Assembly (NCBI GenBank): GCA_003222535.1
Contig: QHWJ01000242.1
Coordinates: 1-41,478 of the forward strand
DNA: 41,478 bases
Origin: Acidobacteriota bacterium
GTDB taxonomy: Bacteria; Acidobacteriota; Vicinamibacteria; Vicinamibacterales; CAVVIG01
Reading direction: 5' to 3'
Both the position numbers and the translations under genes were made by a program. The stretch's first letter is position 1; each line of letters opens with the position of its first letter. This document shows positions 9,567 to 41,153 of the stretch, one piece after another. The notes under the pieces are model-generated. The model saw nothing but the letters and a program-made list of their open reading frames with translations. It did not search any database and was not told where the DNA came from.

Positions 9567-12506
9567 TCAGAATGCCTGTCCGAAGCTGACGAACCACGCG
9601 GTCAACGCCTCGCCGGCCTGGCGACCGACCTTGAATCCGAGGTCGAAGCGAATCGGGCCGAACGGCGACTTGTAACGGACGCCGCCGCCAACCGCGCTCC
9701 GCATCTCGCCGAAGTCGATGTCGGCAACCCGCGCGAAGATGTTGCCGGTATCGAGGAAGCCGACGACACCGAGTCCGCCGGCGACCGGCGCGCGCAATTC
9801 CGCATTGAAGATCACGAGCCCGTTGCCTCCACGTGGCAGGCCGCTGGCGTCGATGGTGTCGCGCTGCAGGTCCTCGGGATCATGGCGAACGCCGAGGCGA
9901 TCGAGCGCGAAGCCGCGGATGGTCGTGTCGCCGCCGGCATAAAACCGCTCGCTCGCCGGCAGAGCCGTGATGACGAGCGGCTGGCCGTCCTCGTCGACGA
10001 GCGGGACGCCGCGTGGATCGAGCAGCGGATTGCCTTTGTTGTCGACGGCGGGGCGCGGAAATCCCGCGGCGAGTCCCAACCTCGCGTTGCCGGCGAACAC
10101 CATGCGGCTGGTGTGGGGCAGCACGTGGAAGGTCTGCGCCGTCAGGAACGATTTCGCGAACCCGACCTGCCCCCCGATCGCGCGGCCGAACAGCTGGGCG
10201 TTGGCGCTGACAAATCGCCCCGCAGTCGGCTCGACCTGATCGTCGCGCGTGTCCCGGATGATCGTGCCGGAAAACCCCGAGAGCAGATAGTCGGGAAACG
10301 TGCGGTCGATGAGCAGCCGGTTTTCCGCGTCGGTCGTGCTCGAGTTGAATGTCACCTCGGTCCGCTGGACCTGGTAGCTCCCGCTGATGCTGACGGCTCG
10401 CGACAGGTGACGGGCGATGTCGGCGCTGCCGCTCTGGCGCTTGAAGTGGAAGCTCGATCGAATCTGCTGCTCGACGGTGCCGTTCAGGAACCCGTCGGCG
10501 GCGGTGTCCAAGATGCGCGGCTCCCGGAAGGTGCCGACACCCCGATACTCCGCGGTCGCTTCGGGATCGAGGGGATGCGAGAAGCTCGCGAAGAAATTCA
10601 CCGATCGGTTTTTGCCGAACACGTTCCGGCGGCCGATTTCGAAGAAGGCGCGCGGCGCGACCTCGAAGCGCTCGGTCGCCACGCTGCCGGCCTCCCTGGC
10701 GCCCACCACGCGCAGCCGCCCCTCGACGCCCCCGCCGTAGCCCACCGTCGTCGGCGGCGCCTCCTCGATCGTCACGAGCAGGTCGCGCGTCGTCTCTCCG
10801 CCGTGGCGCAGCTCCGATATGCGTGCACGGCGGAACAGCCCGAGCGCGGCGAGCCGGCGCTGGCCCTCGTTGATCGCGCTGAGGCTGAACGGGTCGCCCG
10901 CCTTCACCTGCAGCTCGCGCTCGATCGTCCCCGCGCTGGTGCGCACGTTGCCGACGATGAGGACGTGATCGACGAAGACCTGGGGGCCTTCACGAACGGC
11001 GAACGTCACGGCCACGTGCGTGCCGCTCTCGCTGAACTCGGGCCTGGCCTCGACGGTCGCGCTCTCGTAGCCAAGATCCTGGTACGCCAGCTGAATCGCG
11101 TCGCGATCCACGCCCAGCTGCCCGGGCACGTACGGCGCGCCCGCCTGCAGTCTGACGCGCGCCCGCAGCGTCGCCTCGGGCAGCGCCTGGTTTCCGGCGA
11201 ACGCCAGGCTGTCGACGATCGTCCGCGCGCCCTCGGTGATCACGGCCCGCACGGCCACCGGCACCTGTGCCGGGGGCGGCGTAGGCGTGACGACCTCGAC
11301 GGCGGACTGCACCTTCGCCGACGCGAAGCCGCGCCTGTGGTACAGGTCCTCGATCATCTGCACGTCGCCATCCAGCCTGGCGCCGGAGAACGGCTGGCCG
11401 TCCCGCAACCGCAGGCCCGATTCGAACTCGGCCAGCGGGATCGAGGCGTTGCCGGAGATTTCGAACGTCGACACCCTGAACTGCTGCCCGCGATGCACGG
11501 CGAACGTGATCACCAGCTCGGCGTTCGCCTCCTCGCGGGTATGAGGCGCCGTCGCGTCCCGATAGCCCTGCGCTCGCAGGTACTCTTCGATGCGGTTGCT
11601 CGAGTCCTCGAGCAGATCCTCGTCCACCGACCCTTCGCGCTCGACCGGCACGAGCTCGACGCGTCGGTCCGACGGCAGCGGGTCCCCCGTGAACACGACG
11701 CGCACGCGCGGGCCCGGCGACACCGTCAGCGTCAGGTCGGCGACGCGATCGCCGTCGGTCAGGCGCACGACCGGCAGAATCTTCGCTTCGTAGTAACCGC
11801 CTTTGCGACGGGCGTCGATGTACCGCTCGATGCGTGCGTTGAGCGCCTCGCGCTGATACGGCGCGCCGGGCGCGAGGCCAAGGCGGTCGAGGAGCTCGGC
11901 GTGCGTCACCGGCGGCGGTCCGATGATCTCGATCGAGCCGATCTTCGTCCGCACGCCCGGATCGATCGCGAAGACCAGGGTGGCGCGCTCGGGCGCGTGC
12001 TCGACGTCCGATCGCGGAGAGATGGCGGCGTGCAGGTATCCGCGCGCGCGCAGCGCGTCGGCAAGAATGCGCGTCATGTCCGCGGTCCGGCCGAGCGGCG
12101 GCGAGACGCCGAACCGGTCGACGATGGCGCGGCGCAGCGCACCCTGGTCGATGCCGGGCGCACCGAGCGGGCCGTCGAAGCGGATGCTGGCGACGGGATG
12201 GAGCGGCACCAGCTCGTAGGTGAGCGCGACGCGGCCGTTCTCGATCGCCGCATCGACGCTGACGCCCTCGAATCGCCCGAGGCTGAAGAGGTGCGCCACC
12301 GTCTCGCGCACCTGCACCATCGACAGCGGCTGGCCGGACGCGGTCCCGACGATCTGCATCATCAGCGGCTCGGTCGAGTCGCGCCCTTCGATCACGAGGC
12401 GAACTGATCCAACGGGCCGCCCGAGGTAGTCCGCCACGGCCGCGGCTGCGGCCGTGGCACAGAGGACACAGAGGGAACAGAGGACACAGAGGAGACGACG
12501 GCGCAT
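9567..12506 (-). CDS. BamA/TamA-family outer-membrane protein insertase
   Basis: A 979-residue Omp85 protein. A signal peptide (residues 1 to about 22) precedes an unusually long periplasmic part (to about residue 600) that looks like six POTRA modules, recognisable by recurring IxFxGN-type strands (ISGNASIP, FAGNQALP, IVGNVRTS) and ARGYLHA, SRGFASA or DLGYESA-like helix ends. The C-terminal beta-barrel keeps the lid-loop IRGF motif (in GGDTTIRGFALDRLG) and ends in phenylalanine (SFGQAF), the usual barrel signal. It overlaps the upstream tamB stop (TGATG), so the pair probably forms a TamA-TamB-like complex that inserts proteins or moves lipids. No second Omp85 gene is visible, so BamA and TamA cannot be told apart here. 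The signal peptide is Cys-rich and built from DNA repeats. Confidence 0.92.
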   Translation of the reverse strand: MRRRLLCVLCSLCVLCATAAAAAVADYLGRPVGSVRLVIEGRDSTEPLMMQIVGTASGQPLSMVQVRETVAHLFSLGRFEGVSVDAAIENGRVALTYELVPLHPVASIRFDGPLGAPGIDQGALRRAIVDRFGVSPPLGRTADMTRILADALRARGYLHAAISPRSDVEHAPERATLVFAIDPGVRTKIGSIEIIGPPPVTHAELLDRLGLAPGAPYQREALNARIERYIDARRKGGYYEAKILPVVRLTDGDRVADLTLTVSPGPRVRVVFTGDPLPSDRRVELVPVEREGSVDEDLLEDSSNRIEEYLRAQGYRDATAPHTREEANAELVITFAVHRGQQFRVSTFEISGNASIPLAEFESGLRLRDGQPFSGARLDGDVQMIEDLYHRRGFASAKVQSAVEVVTPTPPPAQVPVAVRAVITEGARTIVDSLAFAGNQALPEATLRARVRLQAGAPYVPGQLGVDRDAIQLAYQDLGYESATVEARPEFSESGTHVAVTFAVREGPQVFVDHVLIVGNVRTSAGTIERELQVKAGDPFSLSAINEGQRRLAALGLFRRARISELRHGGETTRDLLVTIEEAPPTTVGYGGGVEGRLRVVGAREAGSVATERFEVAPRAFFEIGRRNVFGKNRSVNFFASFSHPLDPEATAEYRGVGTFREPRILDTAADGFLNGTVEQQIRSSFHFKRQSGSADIARHLSRAVSISGSYQVQRTEVTFNSSTTDAENRLLIDRTFPDYLLSGFSGTIIRDTRDDQVEPTAGRFVSANAQLFGRAIGGQVGFAKSFLTAQTFHVLPHTSRMVFAGNARLGLAAGFPRPAVDNKGNPLLDPRGVPLVDEDGQPLVITALPASERFYAGGDTTIRGFALDRLGVRHDPEDLQRDTIDASGLPRGGNGLVIFNAELRAPVAGGLGVVGFLDTGNIFARVADIDFGEMRSAVGGGVRYKSPFGPIRFDLGFKVGRQAGEALTAWFVSFGQAF
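12434..12492. repeat. Repeat and palindrome encoding the BamA/TamA-like signal peptide
   Basis: Two exact 15-bp copies of ACAGAGGACACAGAG (12460-12474 and 12478-12492) adjoin a perfect 11-bp inverted repeat, GCCACGGCCGC (12434-12444) and GCGGCCGTGGC (12449-12459), with a 4-nt loop. Read on the minus strand this DNA is the signal peptide: the repeat gives LCVLCSLCVLC and the palindrome gives the Ala-rich cleavage region. Confidence 0.8.
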
Positions 12507-15500
12507 CAGAACACGTGCCTCACGCGGAACTCCAGCGCATAGGTCTGCTGGTCCTCGTTGCGCGACAGAATCCAGGACACGCGATCGCTCTCGTCGATCT
12601 CGAGCAGCACAATCTGATCGTTGAACGTCGTGTTGAGGCTGCGGGAGAACGTCAGGTAGACGCGATCGGAGATGCGCTTGCCGATGGTGAGGCGCGCGGT
12701 CGGGTTCAGGCGCGACGACTGCTGGCTGTACGGATCGAAGAACGACGGCGTGAGCTGGAACGTATCGACGCCGAACGTCTGCTCGACGACCTTGCCCACT
12801 TCCGACGACAGCGTCCCCGTGATCGCCTGCGTCGCGCGTGTCGTGATGATGTCGGTCTGCGTCTGGGTCTGATAACGCTGTGCGCGCAGCTCCGGCGCCA
12901 TGTCCTGCGTGCCCGTCCGGCGCACGTCGCTGAAGAGAAGGGCCAGCACCTCCGACGTCGGCAGCGGCGGATCGGAGTTGAGCGTCGGCCTGAGCTGATC
13001 GCTGGTGCCCGCGAAGGCGACGGTGACCCGGTAGGTCTGGCCGGGCACGCGCACGCTGGTCACGGCCTCGATGTCGAAGAACGGCTCGATCCGCGCCGGG
13101 TTCGTGAAGTCCATCGTCCCGCGCGTGATGCGGTAGCGACGTCCCTCGAACGTCACCTCACCGCGCTCGATGTCGGCGTGCCCCACGATCACGGGGCGAT
13201 CGTAGGTGCCGCGCAGCGTGAGGTCGGCGTTGGCCAGAAGACGCGCCAGGTTGTTCTCGACGCGCAGCGTGGACGGCACGAGGAGGTGCACGTCGAACTT
13301 CAACGGCACGGCCGGCGCAGGATCGCCGCCGCCGCCGGCGGGCGGTGCGGATCGTCTCGACGCGAGATCGAAGACGCTGCCCGGCGTGTCGATCCGGCGG
13401 CTCCAGATTGCGCTCCTCACCGTGACCGTCCCGCCGAGCGTCGGTGATTTGTAGTTGCCGCGCAACGCGAGGTCGGCGTCGACGACCGAGCGGATGCCTT
13501 CGGGAACCCGCAGGTGCATCTCCTCGCCCCGTGCCGTGAGATCGAGATCGCCGGGCAGATAGCCGTCCAGGCCGATCCGGCCGCCAAACTGCACGTGCCC
13601 TCCGCCCATCGTCGCCGCCACGTCGTCGAGCCGGATGCCGCTGGCGTCGAAATGAATCGTGCCATTGATGGCGTCGAGCGCGTTGGGAATCGAGAAGTGG
13701 CGGATGCGGCCGCCGGCGATCGTCGCGCTGCCGGAGAACCGCGGCTGCTGCAGCGGACCGTCGATCGCGGCGGTCAGCTCTGCCCGGCCCGATCCGCGGA
13801 CATCGCGGAAGAAGCCCTGGAGGATGCCGAGGTTGGCGTCACCGGAGGCCTCGAGCGCGATCCGATCGTCCTTCAGCCCGATCGCGCCCGACACCCGCAG
13901 CCGCGTGTCCACGCCGACCAGCTGCAGCTCCTGGATCCTGATCCGCTGCTCGTCGAGCGCGATCCGGATCGGCGCGGCGTTCTTCACGGCATAGTCGAGC
14001 AGCCGCATGTCGAGCGAGTCCACCGTCCCGTCGACGAGCAGGTGATTGGCATCGGCCAGCTCGCCCACGACACGAATGGATCCGCTCACGACTGCCGTGG
14101 TGAACGGCGAGAGGCGTGGCACGAACAGACGGACGTATGGATCGAGCGACGTGTCGTGGAACCGGAACGTCAGCTCCGCGTCGGACTGCGGCGTGAGGGC
14201 GATGCGGCCGCCGCCCGTGAGCGCCAGGCGCGGCGAGGCGGCGTCGATCTCGCCGCTCAACTGGTTGCCTCGGAGCGCGAGCGTGCCGGTGACCTGGCCG
14301 ACGCCCTCTTCTCCAATAAAGAGATCATTGACCCGAAACTTGAAGTCGTTGCGCGGGTTGTCGAACGTACTGCTGCCGCCGGCGGTGAACTCGGCGATGC
14401 CCGACAGCGGCGCGCGCGGATACGCCAGAAACGCGAGGCGTTCGACCGGGATGCGACGGCCGTCCACGTTGAACGAGTAGGTGGAATCCCAGCCGACGAA
14501 CGCGGCGCCGGTAATCGTGCCGGCGCCTTTCTCGACGATCATGTTGTCGAGCCGCACGCCCGACCCGTCGAACCGCAACGCCGACGCCGCCTTCTGAAAC
14601 GGCTCGCCGTACGCGATCCCGTCGTCAATCGTCATGGCGCCGAAGCCGATGGGCCGCTCGTACCCGCCGGTCAGGTGAAACTCGCCCGACAGCAGGCCGG
14701 ACACCGGGTACACATCGATTCCGAACGCATGCCGCAGGCTGTCGAGGTCGCGGCGCGCCACGCGCAGGCGGGCGTTGATTTCTTCGCCGCCGTCCTCGCG
14801 GGGGTAGCCGAGCGAGAAGAGGCCGTCGGCGCGAATCTCCGAGTCGCCCAGCCGCACCGCGCCGTCGCGCACGTTCACATACCGGTTCTCGACGACGATC
14901 TGCGCCGAGCCGCCGCCCCAGAGCGTGTCGAACGCGCGGAGATCCTCGCCGGTGAACAGGCCTTCGACGCGCGGATTGTGAAAGGCCCCGGTCATGACGC
15001 CGTCGAACTCGCCGCGGCCGCCGAACGGGACCGCGCCGGTCGGCGACCCGAAGTCCGTGATGATCCCGGCGAGCACCTGATCGCTTTCCTGCCAGTCGCT
15101 GGTCGTCACGTGAAACGCCAGGCGGGAGCGATCGCCGTAGGACGTCGTGCCGCCGAAGGTGACGTGCGTGCGCTCGGTCGCGAAACGCCCCGACTCGATG
15201 GTGACCTCATCGGGTGTGTAGCGATACGTGAGCTCACCGGCGATCGGCAGATGCGCCGGGAGCGGCACGGGCGCAAACGGTCCCCATTCGTGCCGCGCAT
15301 GGTCGGCGTCGGCCGCGCGCGCGGCCTCCAGCGACGCGGTCATCGGCGTCACACCAGGCGGCGGCGTCACCACCAGACGCCCCTCGCCGCGATGATCGGC
15401 GAAGCGGCCGGACGGCCACTCGAGCAGGTTGTGCAGCGACGCGGCGCCCGCAAAGCGCAGTCCGGGGAACTGCTCGAAGTCGCTGAACCTCGCCAGGTCG

Positions 15501-16618
15501 AGGTCGGTCACCGTGGCATCGAAGCGGTGCGTCGGCCGCGTCTTCTTACCGAACGGCTGGATCGAATATGCGAACTGCGCGGCCCCTCCGTAGAACTGCG
15601 AGCCGGCGTTCCAGACCTCGAACCCGTGCCGCGTCCACCGCAGCGATCCGTACAGATATGGAAATCGATACTCGTTCACGCCGGCAAGCTCGCTCGAGAA
15701 CGTGCCCGTGAGATCGCGGTTGGTGTCGCCCTCCGCGCCGTTCTTGAACAACCGGAACGTGCCGGTGAAGTCGCCGTCGCCGGAGATCCGCCACGGTTCG
15801 TTCTTGAAAAACAGCTCCCGCATGCGCGGGAACTTGACGCGCGACCGGACCTGGTAGCCCTGGTTGGGCCAGTGCGCCACGTCCACCTCGCCGCGCGCGA
15901 CCGTTGTCGCCCCGTCGGTGTCGAGGTCGACGCGCTCGAGATGGATGCGCGAGCCGTCGATGACGAACCGCGCCTTCATGTTCGCCCACATCGGCTCGAA
16001 GTCCTGGATCGTGACCGTTCCGCCCGTGAACGTCGCCGTCCCGTGGTAGGTGGGGAGGTTGCCGATGTTGATGTCCAGATTGCGGCAGACGATGCCCCAC
16101 GGCGTTTCGTGATCTTCGAACGTGAACTGCCCTCGGGACGCCCGCAGGTATTTGAGGGTCGTCGTGACGCGTCGCGGGCCCGGCGGCTTCCCGTCGTCGT
16201 GGTTGAACCGCGGGAAGTTGTGCGCGTTCTCCCACTTCTCGACCAGCATGTGCCAGTCGGTCATCTCGACGGCGGTAATCGTGATGTCCGGCCGGCGGGC
16301 GATGGCCGGCATCCAGTCGAGCGACACCGCCAGCTGCCGGGCGGTGAAGAACGGACGATCGCCTTCGTGCAGGCCGTCGATCGTCAGGTTCTCGACGAGG
16401 AACTTGCCGGTGAGGAGACGGATCCTGAGCGACCCGATGTGCATCGGCCGCTCGATGTACTTGGAGCCCTCGATTTCCGCCTTCTGTCGCGCGATCGGTC
16501 CGAGATCGACCGTGACGGACGAGACGATCGCCGCCGCCAGCAGCGCGACGACCAGCGTGAGGCCGAGGCCGACACATCGAAGGGCCTTGTGATGACGCAG
16601 GCGCTTGAAGGATTTCAC
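12506..16618 (-). CDS. tamB: TamB-like translocation and assembly module protein
   Basis: A 1370-residue envelope protein. One N-terminal membrane helix (about residues 14-36) anchors a very long beta-rich periplasmic region with AsmA-like character. The C-terminal 300 or so residues match the TamB (DUF490) domain, including LALLFSDVRRTG, then TFGVDTFQLTP, TIGKRISDRVYLTFSR and a terminal EFRVRHVF. TamB proteins bridge inner and outer membranes and are linked to barrel-protein insertion and phospholipid transport. The start is GTG at 16618, overlapping the BCCP stop (GTGA), so translation is coupled to a fatty-acid-type carboxylase subunit. Its stop overlaps the start of the Omp85 gene. The domain assignment is confident; the exact cargo is not known. 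Confidence 0.9.
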   Translation of the reverse strand: MKSFKRLRHHKALRCVGLGLTLVVALLAAAIVSSVTVDLGPIARQKAEIEGSKYIERPMHIGSLRIRLLTGKFLVENLTIDGLHEGDRPFFTARQLAVSLDWMPAIARRPDITITAVEMTDWHMLVEKWENAHNFPRFNHDDGKPPGPRRVTTTLKYLRASRGQFTFEDHETPWGIVCRNLDINIGNLPTYHGTATFTGGTVTIQDFEPMWANMKARFVIDGSRIHLERVDLDTDGATTVARGEVDVAHWPNQGYQVRSRVKFPRMRELFFKNEPWRISGDGDFTGTFRLFKNGAEGDTNRDLTGTFSSELAGVNEYRFPYLYGSLRWTRHGFEVWNAGSQFYGGAAQFAYSIQPFGKKTRPTHRFDATVTDLDLARFSDFEQFPGLRFAGAASLHNLLEWPSGRFADHRGEGRLVVTPPPGVTPMTASLEAARAADADHARHEWGPFAPVPLPAHLPIAGELTYRYTPDEVTIESGRFATERTHVTFGGTTSYGDRSRLAFHVTTSDWQESDQVLAGIITDFGSPTGAVPFGGRGEFDGVMTGAFHNPRVEGLFTGEDLRAFDTLWGGGSAQIVVENRYVNVRDGAVRLGDSEIRADGLFSLGYPREDGGEEINARLRVARRDLDSLRHAFGIDVYPVSGLLSGEFHLTGGYERPIGFGAMTIDDGIAYGEPFQKAASALRFDGSGVRLDNMIVEKGAGTITGAAFVGWDSTYSFNVDGRRIPVERLAFLAYPRAPLSGIAEFTAGGSSTFDNPRNDFKFRVNDLFIGEEGVGQVTGTLALRGNQLSGEIDAASPRLALTGGGRIALTPQSDAELTFRFHDTSLDPYVRLFVPRLSPFTTAVVSGSIRVVGELADANHLLVDGTVDSLDMRLLDYAVKNAAPIRIALDEQRIRIQELQLVGVDTRLRVSGAIGLKDDRIALEASGDANLGILQGFFRDVRGSGRAELTAAIDGPLQQPRFSGSATIAGGRIRHFSIPNALDAINGTIHFDASGIRLDDVAATMGGGHVQFGGRIGLDGYLPGDLDLTARGEEMHLRVPEGIRSVVDADLALRGNYKSPTLGGTVTVRSAIWSRRIDTPGSVFDLASRRSAPPAGGGGDPAPAVPLKFDVHLLVPSTLRVENNLARLLANADLTLRGTYDRPVIVGHADIERGEVTFEGRRYRITRGTMDFTNPARIEPFFDIEAVTSVRVPGQTYRVTVAFAGTSDQLRPTLNSDPPLPTSEVLALLFSDVRRTGTQDMAPELRAQRYQTQTQTDIITTRATQAITGTLSSEVGKVVEQTFGVDTFQLTPSFFDPYSQQSSRLNPTARLTIGKRISDRVYLTFSRSLNTTFNDQIVLLEIDESDRVSWILSRNEDQQTYALEFRVRHVF

Positions 16619-21303: not shown

Positions 21304-21334
21304 GCTCTACGACTCGTCTGCCCGACCTGACCAT

Positions 21335-21570
21335 GACCTACTTGGCCTACCTGCCCTACCCGACCTCCTGCCCTACCCGACCTACCCGACCTCCTGCCCT
21401 ACCCGACCTACTTGACCTACCGGCCCTACCTGACCTACCCGACCTCCTGACCTACCCGACCTACCTGACCTACCCGACCTACCCGACCTACTTGACCTGC
21501 CCGACCTACCTGCCCTACCCGACCTACTTGACCTACGCGACCTACTTGACCTACCCGACCTGCCCGACCT
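21335..21570. repeat. C-rich 9-bp tandem array (ACCTACCCG)
   Basis: About 26 copies of ACCTAC[CT][CT]G, a few of them 8 bp long, end right at the stop of the first receptor gene. The period equals three codons, so a plus-strand frame reads as repeating Thr-Tyr-Pro/Leu. The minus strand is rich in GG and GGG runs. I regard it as a non-coding repeat that transcription of the receptor gene would run into. Confidence 0.85.
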
Positions 21571-21572
21571 TG

Positions 21573-24500
21573 TTAGAAGAGGAACTTCGCCGCGAACTGC
21601 ACCTGACGTGCGGACCCGGAGTCGCCGGTCGGGAAACGCGTATTGCTGATCACGCCGAACGAGGTGCTTCCGACCGAAGCGGTGCGACCCGGTTGTCCGA
21701 GGTTCGCCTGGTTGAACAGGTTGAAGATCTCGAGGCGGAGCTGCGCGCGCGCGCGGCCGGTCAGGGTCACGTTCTTGATGAACGACAGGTCGGTGTTGCC
21801 GAATCGTGGTCCGATAATCGTGTTGCGCGGCAGATTGCCGAAGTGCGCGACGCCCGCCGCGTTGTAGGGCAGCGCGAACGCCGACGAGGACGTGCAGGAG
21901 CCGGCGATGCGCGGGTCGCACACGATGTTGCTGGTGAACCACTGGTAGCTGATCACGTTGCCGTTGGCGTCGAGGTTCGGCGTCGGGACGATCGTCGGCA
22001 GGGGCCCGATGAGGTCGGGCCGCACCGACGAGAACCCGGTGATCGTCGAAATGTTGGTGATGACGTTCAGCGGGTTCCCGCTCTGCGCCTGCTCGACGAC
22101 GACGACCTGCCAACCTTCCTTCAACCGGTTGCCCTTGAACGGTAGATCGTAGCTGGCATTGATTGAGAAGCGATGGCGGACGTCGAAATCGGACAGCCCT
22201 TCGCTATCGGCGAGGTTCGTGCTGTCTTGCAGCGAGCCGTTGGTGTTGGCGCCCGTGCCTTCGTACGAGTTGCTGTCGGTCGACTTCGACAGCGTGTACG
22301 AGCCCGAGAGCTGCAGCCCCTTCGACAGCCGGCGGTTCGCCGTGACCCACAGACCCTTGTAGTGCGACCAGCCCAGGCTCGTGCTCTCGGTGATGTTGCC
22401 GAGAGTCGCGCCCGGTAGAATCGGGCTCGTCGTCGAGAGCCGCGGGTACGGGCGCACGGTGCCGCCGGGCGTCGTGAACTGGTTCAGGTTGATCGGAATC
22501 CGCTGGCGATCGCCGTACGATCCGAAGTACCCGACCATCAGGCCCGTTCCGCCGAGCTCGCGCTCGACGTTCACGTTCCACGACTGCATGCGGCCGGGCA
22601 GGAAGTTCGGGTCGGTGAACGCCGGCGACACGCTCGTCGCGGCGGCCGCTCCGCCGATCGCGTTGTCGAGCTTGATGTTGCTCGCGGCGGTTCCGGACGC
22701 CTGCGCCGACAGCGGCGTGACGAGCGGCGGATTGCCGGTCTCGCCGGTGAAGTAGCCGGTGTTGCTCTGGTTGACCAAGACGGCGTATGCGCCGCGGACG
22801 ACAAGCTTGCCGTCGCCGGTGGGATTCCAGATGAGGCCGACGCGCGGCTGGAAGTCGCTGCCGTTCTTGGTGACCTTGCTGAATCCCCCCGTGCCGATCT
22901 GCAGCAGCGACAGAGTCGCCGGGTCGAAGGTGACGAGCTTGTTGTCCGCTTCCGTCGGCGAGGGCAGGAAGTCGTAGCGCAGCCCGAGGTCGGCCTTCAG
23001 GTTCGGGCCGAGCGAGATGCTGTCCTGGACGAATCCGCCGACGGCGTTCACGTAGGCGTTGTACGCACGCTGCCCGAGCATGATGTTGAGCTGGCTCGCG
23101 AAGCCGGACTGGAACGCGGCGACGCTCGGATAGGTCACGCTGCCCGGATCCGAGTTGAAGTTGAAGTGCTTCACGCGTCGAACCTCGCCGCCGAACTTCA
23201 CGATATGGTTGCCGTGGAGGTAGGTCGCTGTGTCGCCGACGGCGAACGTGGTCACCTCGCGGCCGCTCGGGAACCCGCCGGGACCCCCGAAGTTCAGCCC
23301 GGGACCCGAAATCGTAATCGCCGGCAGCGCGATCGGCATGGCCGTCTGACCGACGTTGATCCCGAGCGCGCTGGTGTCCACCAGCGTGTTCGGAATGAAG
23401 GTGATGCTGATGCGGTTGTACCCGGCGCGTACCTCGTTGACGAGCGTCGGACTGAAAATGTGAGTCTCATTGACCGTCAGGATCTGCCGGTGGCCGCCGC
23501 GCGTGTCGCTGAAACCGGCGACGGTCTGGCCCTGGGCGTTCGACTCGATACGACTATCGGCCTGGAACGCGTAATAGACGTGCAGGTCGTCGCCCTGCCG
23601 GAGATTGTTGCGGGAGTCGATCGTGTACTGGTTGATCTGGACCGGCGCCAGCGGAGAGCCGATCGCTCGAGTGCCTGTCAGATCGTTCGCCGCCGGGATG
23701 TATGCGAGCAGTCGCCTTGCGGTTGGATCGGTGACACCCGCGCGCTGCGTGTCGGTCAGCGTTCCGGAATTGAGGTCGACGCCCTGCTTGTGACGAAGTC
23801 CTTCATAGCTGCCGAAGTAGAACGACCGGTCCTTCACCACCGGTCCACCGAGGTTCACGCCGAACTGCTTGCGATTGAAGAGCGACTGCGGTGTCACGTT
23901 GCCACTGGCATCGACGCTCGGCGGGTTGAAGTAGTTGCGCGAGTCGAACCGGTCGTCGCGGTAGAAGTCGAACGCTTCGCCGTGCATCGCGTTGGCCCCC
24001 GACCGGGTGGCGACGTTGACGATCGAGCCGGAATTCCGGCCGTACTCCGCGCTGAAGGTCGAGTTGTCGACCTTGAACTCGGACACCGTGTTGATCGACG
24101 GCTGGAAGGTGACCTGCGAGTTCGACAGGTCGTTCAGGTTGATGCCGTTCACCATGAAGTTGACGGACGTCTCCCGGTTGCCCGCCGACATGAAGGAGAA
24201 CGACCCCTGGCCGCGCAGCGGCGCGCTCAGCCCCGCGTTCTGCGGCGACGTGCTGCCGCCGGGCATCAGCGGCCCGAGGTCGACGAAATGCCGGCCGTTC
24301 AGCGGAATCTCCTGGACCGTCTTCTCGGCCATGACCTGGCCGACAGAGACGGTCGCCGTCTCGATGAGCGGCGACGAGCCGGTCACGGTGACGTTTTCCG
24401 CGATTGCGCCAACACTCAGCTTCAGATTGAGGGCGACGGTCTGGGCGGGCCCGATCGGGACCTCGCGCTTCTGGTCCGTAAACCCTTCGAGATGCGCGGT

Positions 24501-25076: not shown

Positions 25077-25106
25077 GTCGCCGCCGCGAAGAACCGCGGC
25101 GGCGAC
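25077..25106 (-). terminator. Strong hairpin after the second receptor gene
   Basis: GTCGCCGCCGCG (25077-25088) and CGCGGCGGCGAC (25095-25106) form a perfect 12-bp stem with a 6-nt loop, about 80 nt past the stop codon of the second receptor gene. No U-tract follows. Nearby are a perfect 14-bp palindrome, TTTCTTCGAAGAAA (25037-25050), and an inverted copy of GGTGCCCTACGA (24992-25003). I see no convincing gene in 24919-25184. Confidence 0.5.
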
Positions 25107-28233: not shown

Positions 28234-28265
28234 GAGGCGACGCGCGTCGAAGCGCGCGTCGCCTC
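28234..28265 (-). promoter_or_regulatory. Leader hairpin of the second receptor gene
   Basis: A perfect 13-bp stem (28234-28246 with 28253-28265, arms GAGGCGACGCGCG and its complement) with a 6-nt loop, in the predicted leader about 71 nt before the ATG. The stem base resembles that of the hairpin in front of the first receptor gene. Confidence 0.55.
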
Positions 28266-41071: not shown

Positions 41072-41089
41072 ATCACCACGAGGGACACC

Positions 41090-41121
41090 AAGGACACAAA
41101 GGACTTCAATTTTGTGTCCTT
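41090..41121. terminator. Word-repeat hairpin (AAGGACACAAA) after the regulator gene
   Basis: AAGGACACAAA (41090-41100) and TTTGTGTCCTT (41111-41121) form a perfect 11-bp stem with a 10-nt loop, extended by partly paired flanks (CACC and GTG). It lies 19 bp after the regulator stop and probably ends that transcript. The word belongs to the GGACACAAAGG type that I have seen described only as low-complexity peptide in annotations. Confidence 0.6.
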
Positions 41122-41153
41122 TGTGATGGAGTGAGGCCTGCCCGCGCGTGACG

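Follow-up and report, generated by a model that had tools for sequence, protein, structure and literature searches.

A dispersed 9-bp-unit repeat at the start of a tamA-like gene and its probable recruitment as a signal peptide core in Acidobacteria

The tamA-like gene and the repeat array at its start

The window, that is, the whole stretch of 41,478 bp analysed here, comes from an uncultured Acidobacterium genome of 8.06 Mb. The features needed below are the following.

9567..12506, minus strand: tamA-like gene, 979 aa, with POTRA domains and an Omp85 barrel (Pfam POTRA 6e-56, Omp85 1e-38)
12506..16618, minus strand: tamB-like gene directly upstream of tamA (Pfam TamB 2e-48)
12432..12506, minus strand: predicted signal peptide (SP) coding region, translated as MRRRLLCVLCSLCVLCATAAAAAVA followed by D, with cleavage inferred between AVA and D
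12458..12498, minus strand: 9-bp repeat array TCGTCTCCTCTGTGTCCTCTGTTCCCTCTGTGTCCTCTGTG, forming the h-region of the predicted SP, units in register, 52 bits
12433..12458, no strand: perfect 11-bp inverted repeat, arms 12433-12443 and 12448-12458, loop 4, directly next to the repeat's outer end
41077..41125, no strand: repeat of this class lying between genes, its two arms opposed (36.8 and 24.3 bits) and forming a hairpin

Four POTRA stretches followed by an Omp85 domain at residues 628-979 place the tamA product in the TamA/Omp85 superfamily by Pfam. The specific POTRA_TamA_1 model scored 20 bits against a cut-off of 26 bits, and the tamB gene is adjacent. The tamA ATG at 12506 overlaps the TGA stop codon of tamB as TGATG, an arrangement common to most orthologues. 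If the in-frame GTG downstream of the repeat served as the start instead, this outer-membrane protein would be left with no SP. With the conserved TGATG coupling, this places the predicted true start upstream of the repeat, and the objection raised in the first-pass annotation, that the start might lie downstream of it, is unlikely to hold.

As that annotation had claimed, two exact 15-bp copies of ACAGAGGACACAGAG lie over the SP code, at 12459-12473 and 12477-12491, and a degenerate third copy (2 mismatches) was found at 12468-12482. On the minus strand the array reads as about four 9-bp units, CTCTGTGTC CTCTGTTCC CTCTGTGTC CTCTGTG. Repeat arms were scored in bits with a log-odds scorer; compared with the 52 bits of this array, 10 Markov-shuffled windows gave a mean of 0.1 hits of at least 20 bits per window. 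Words of the ACAGAGGACACAGAG type with at most 3 mismatches occurred 5 times in the window, versus 0.72 expected. The 35-bp core of the array is identical at 33/35 positions to one other genomic copy and at 32/35 to several, and its best match in the remainder of the window is 20/35.

Read in frame, the array translates to RLLCVLCSLCVLC, in line with the Cys-rich core proposed earlier, and gives MRRRLLCVLCSLCVLCATAAAAAVADYLGRP within the 979-aa gene. The predicted SP has an MRRR n-region, a hydrophobic core and AVA before D26, and qualifies by rule as a Sec SP. Its best 11-residue Kyte-Doolittle mean was 3.1, versus 2.4-2.6 in four repeat-free orthologues. The repeat-encoded peptide would probably work as an export signal. 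The adjoining inverted repeat was likewise expected to encode the Ala-rich cleavage zone, and the translation agrees; the palindrome itself is present and perfect, but its original coordinate was one base off. Its right arm is the conserved AAVAD coding sequence, and inverted repeats of this size numbered 0-2 per shuffled window.

The repeat family and the tamA orthologues

The sequence GTGTCCTYYGTG gave 61 matches in the 8.06-Mb genome and its reversed control 1. The view that such words are otherwise an intergenic repeat style agrees with a dispersed, hairpin-forming family. Most copies lie between genes and have two arms, with non-LCV linkers. An arm usually comprises two to eight units, and many arms are paired in opposed orientation and can form a hairpin; a canonical arm is CCTYTGTGTCCTYTGTNNCCTYTGTGTCCTYTGTG. 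The 41077-41125 hairpin has a predicted RNA fold of -20.6 kcal/mol (z -2.8). Most of the genomes compared are fragmented MAGs. The canonical arm is patchy (11/27 genomes of the family), and a strict 21-mer occurs in 18/396 genomes of the phylum. No Rfam match was found in the window and five loci. A RAYT-type transposase was considered as a possible mobiliser; the genome yielded a single Y1_Tnp gene, and no strong repeat adjoins it.

One subfamily (L387, L388, L392, L400-L404), about 95 bp long and ending in the inverted termini CAACTCTCCACCACGG...CCGTGGTGGAGAGTTG, looks like a MITE, and it is this element that lies at the start of tamA in genomes G005 and G017. Constant terminal inverted repeats were seen by eye in the CTCTCCACCACGG subfamily but were not evident in the tamA copy of the present genome.

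The consensus unit is CTYNGTGTC. Because this 9-bp unit is a multiple of three and stop-free, each reading frame gives a three-residue repeat. In the CTYNGTGTC direction the LCV and SVS/FVS frames are hydrophobic, and the third frame reads LCP. The earlier statement that the repeat can encode a hydrophobic peptide as Leu-Cys-Val was therefore right for that frame and is refined here, as the SVS/FVS frame serves too.

Alignment of tamA orthologues, which had been proposed as a check, showed a conserved mature TamA-like protein, whereas the SP region contains the 9-bp repeat in 6/33. Two of these arrays have visibly decayed (G020, MRRRFGDVLRVLGVLCAAAS; G009, MRLRVLRALCLLCGLS), G005 and G017 carry a full two-armed element (LILCVLCVLRGGEL), and G011 has MERVFLCVLSFLYVLG. 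Most other orthologues have an ordinary repeat-free SP right after TGATG at the same tamB-tamA junction, for example MRAAPTIAGGLALLIVGVSAAARAAVGDYLGKP; in those members of the same family that were checked, the score did not exceed about 12 bits. The SP is thus the opposite of a peptide conserved as protein over unrelated DNA, the pattern named as fatal to the idea. On the tree of mature proteins the repeat label needs 3 changes of state, 3 of them forced by well-supported branches, and sister pairs differ (G017 with the repeat and G014 without; G011 with and G002 without). A single old gain followed by losses would still be compatible with part of the tree. Both the patchiness and the recurrence described below support the earlier proposal that the repeat entered the gene start and was kept as a predicted export signal.

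Related repeats adjoin the tamA SP in G025 and G047. In more distant Vicinamibacterales other simple repeats were seen at the tamB-tamA junction, within about 100 bases either side of position 1501 of L090 and L092: the tamA SP core of L090 consists of TTGGGCA units (WALGIGHWALGI) and that of L092 of CACTTTG units with an opposed arm. A Vicinamibacterales-type tamA is also present in public MAG records whose titles give Bifidobacterium breve or Acidimicrobiia (L074, L087, L089), and these names are probably wrong.

Recurrence in other genes, frame contrast and codon positions

From the sampled family genomes, 244 distinct arms were collected, and coding-like sequence continued in frame downstream of the repeat in 60 genes. 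On visual inspection of N-termini and Pfam families, the repeat was judged to make up the SP core in 12/28 cases in the LCV frame, 11/18 in the SVS frame and 1/14 in the LCP frame, about 24 genes. They include penicillin amidase, DsbD, cytochrome c lipoproteins, M16 and M28 peptidases, LptE, SCO1, lytic transglycosylase and VWA-like proteins. The suggested search for other SPs with LCVLC-type cores turned up many such genes, both in this genome and among its relatives. The LCP-frame cases were cytosolic enzymes with the true start after the repeat, except for one HlyD-type protein and one membrane transporter.

When we assigned the downstream Pfam families as extracytoplasmic or not, 20/36 genes in the LCV and SVS frames were extracytoplasmic versus 1/14 in the LCP frame (Fisher p 0.003; p 0.012 after merging orthologues). 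This frame contrast is an internal control. The gene for an MPDPKQM.. protein, which has no Pfam family, carries a repeat-derived SP of at least 33 bits in 12/23 family genomes, and the repeat SP is therefore old in this gene. Between orthologous cytochrome c lipoproteins the frame in which the repeat is read differs (LCV in L222, SVS in L261).

To assess selection, 17 SP arms from two sets of orthologues, tamA and the MPDPKQM gene, were compared with other arms. Departures from the unit at third and non-third codon positions were 14/116 and 12/290 in the orthologous SPs, and 164/2018 and 548/4997 in the other arms. The resulting third-position skew had an odds ratio of 3.9 (p 0.0008), and 8.3 (p 0.002) when linker positions were left out; both p-values are optimistic because the orthologous SPs are not independent. 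The skew is consistent with selection for the peptide and, since the sequences are related, is supportive rather than conclusive. The one-arm-per-gene set, representing independent young SPs, showed few departures from the unit, too few for a selection test.

Proposed origin, known systems and the palindrome

Taking together the observed identity, position and frame of the repeat, its phylogenetic patchiness, its recurrence and the third-position skew, we consider it very probable that an intergenic repeat became the h-region of the tamA SP and that such recruitment was repeated in many genes. A dispersed hairpin-forming repeat of CTYNGTGTC units would lie across the tamA start with one arm serving as the h-region. 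As the LCV and SVS/FVS frames appear hydrophobic enough for SP cores, a repeat falling in either of them where the gene of a secreted protein begins could replace the old core. Because an SP needs just charge, hydrophobicity and a small-residue cleavage zone, a repeat-made SP would be tolerated and then held by selection, in tamA as presumably in numerous further proteins of these Acidobacteria that are secreted or belong to the envelope. The insertion as an event we infer, since the comparison is between genera, as we do the export function and the mode of spread.

The repeat might instead be only a 5' regulatory or untranslated element, with the apparent SP arising from an over-extended reading frame. 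Many copies indeed stand just before genes with a downstream true start (biotin carboxylase, enolase, HisG, ProS, ScpA). We nevertheless regard this as unlikely for tamA, whose TGATG start is conserved and whose outer-membrane product has no SP once the repeat is removed; moreover, extracytoplasmic genes are concentrated in the hydrophobic frames. It is also conceivable that old SPs of repeat composition were the source and that the copies between genes descend from gene fragments that spread, as the age of the repeat SP in the MPDPKQM gene would allow. The intergenic, two-armed nature of most copies, their non-LCV linkers and the inverted termini CAACTCTCCACCACGG owned by one subfamily leave that route very little probability. 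Chance or convergent Leu, Cys and Val codons, unrelated to the intergenic repeats, might be suspected, since hydrophobicity is inherent in SP cores and short L/V-rich cores also occur in some repeat-free orthologues. Such an origin is hardly credible, however, given the 33/35 DNA identity to a genomic copy, the 52 bits versus a maximum of about 12 bits in the repeat-free orthologues checked within the family, and the full two-armed elements that G005 and G017 have at this position.

Recruitment of repeat DNA into an SP has a precedent in Yersinia, where the dispersed palindromic repeat YPAL/RU-2 supplies the first 30 residues of the predicted SP of YPO1552, while SPs are likewise predicted for relatives that lack the repeat (Delihas 2007, PMC2759123; PMC2229807). 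Likewise, a dispersed repeat forms part of the predicted SP of tamA, and repeat-free relatives keep predicted SPs. However, YPAL/RU-2 is a 168-bp element in one putative exported protein of Yersinia, whereas the present repeat has 9-bp units and occurs in many genes, several lineages and two reading frames, including a conserved envelope-assembly gene. Rickettsia palindromic elements also lie in frame inside conserved protein genes (PMC2229807, PMC10969869). They occur within diverse proteins including metabolic enzymes, unlike the coding copies here, which are concentrated in SPs. Like MITEs and REP-type bacterial repeats, the family is short, dispersed, mostly intergenic and hairpin-forming; it differs from them in its tandem 9-bp units of variable number and in having constant inverted termini in a minor subfamily only. 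A literature search for the repeat sequences found nothing related, and searching for Acidobacterial repeats was equally uninformative.

Because of the Yersinia case and the in-frame Rickettsia elements, the principle of repeat DNA as part of an SP is already known; its repeated recruitment appears to be new. What is added here is the scale, the frame logic and the presence of fresh and decaying states side by side in one conserved gene. The birth of new SPs is rarely seen, and a single gene displays ordinary, fresh-repeat and decaying-repeat SPs in related bacteria. Many unrelated genes appear to show the same route, by which ordinary repeat DNA would have been turned into protein-targeting code again and again. 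This offers a dated and testable system for studying how repeat DNA gives rise to a protein-targeting signal, along with a warning that gene starts and repeats are easily misannotated in such genomes.

The palindrome beside the tamA array has counterparts. In this genome a stem of at least 10 bp lies directly at the outer side of 7/84 arms versus 2/420 random places (p 8e-5); outer versus inner flanks gave 7/84 and 1/84 (p 0.06), which is suggestive only. Perfect inverted repeats of 10-14 bp abutting the outer repeat end were seen at L006, L182, L187, L198, L199 and L261 in this genome and at L311 in G025. The outer stems differ in sequence between arms of this genome and are rare or absent in other genomes; the palindrome therefore seems not to be a fixed part of the repeat, and arm plus palindrome as one constant element was rejected. 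Where the stems were inspected by eye, at tamA, biotin carboxylase, cytochrome c lipoprotein and the MPDPKQM protein, the right stem arm is the gene's own coding sequence. In this genome the palindrome thus seems to be an inverted copy of adjacent gene DNA, and it may be the trace either of a hairpin-shaped target site or of an inverted duplication that accompanied the arrival of the repeat. A broader idea, which we put forward tentatively and hold to be rather doubtful, is that SP-coding DNA acts as a landing zone whose tolerance of inserted repeats is similar to that of intergenic DNA, that export signals are continually rebuilt from several repeat families, and that repeats abut or create an inverted gene copy on arrival.

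Two perfect GC-rich hairpins of 11-13 bp also occur near gene starts in the window without the 9-bp repeat, at 28234-28262 and 25077-25106. In addition, degenerate tandem repeats of gacctaccc / gacctactt with a spacing of about 9 bp form a long, apparently intergenic run at 21331-21573, whose sequence is unrelated to that of the tamA repeat.
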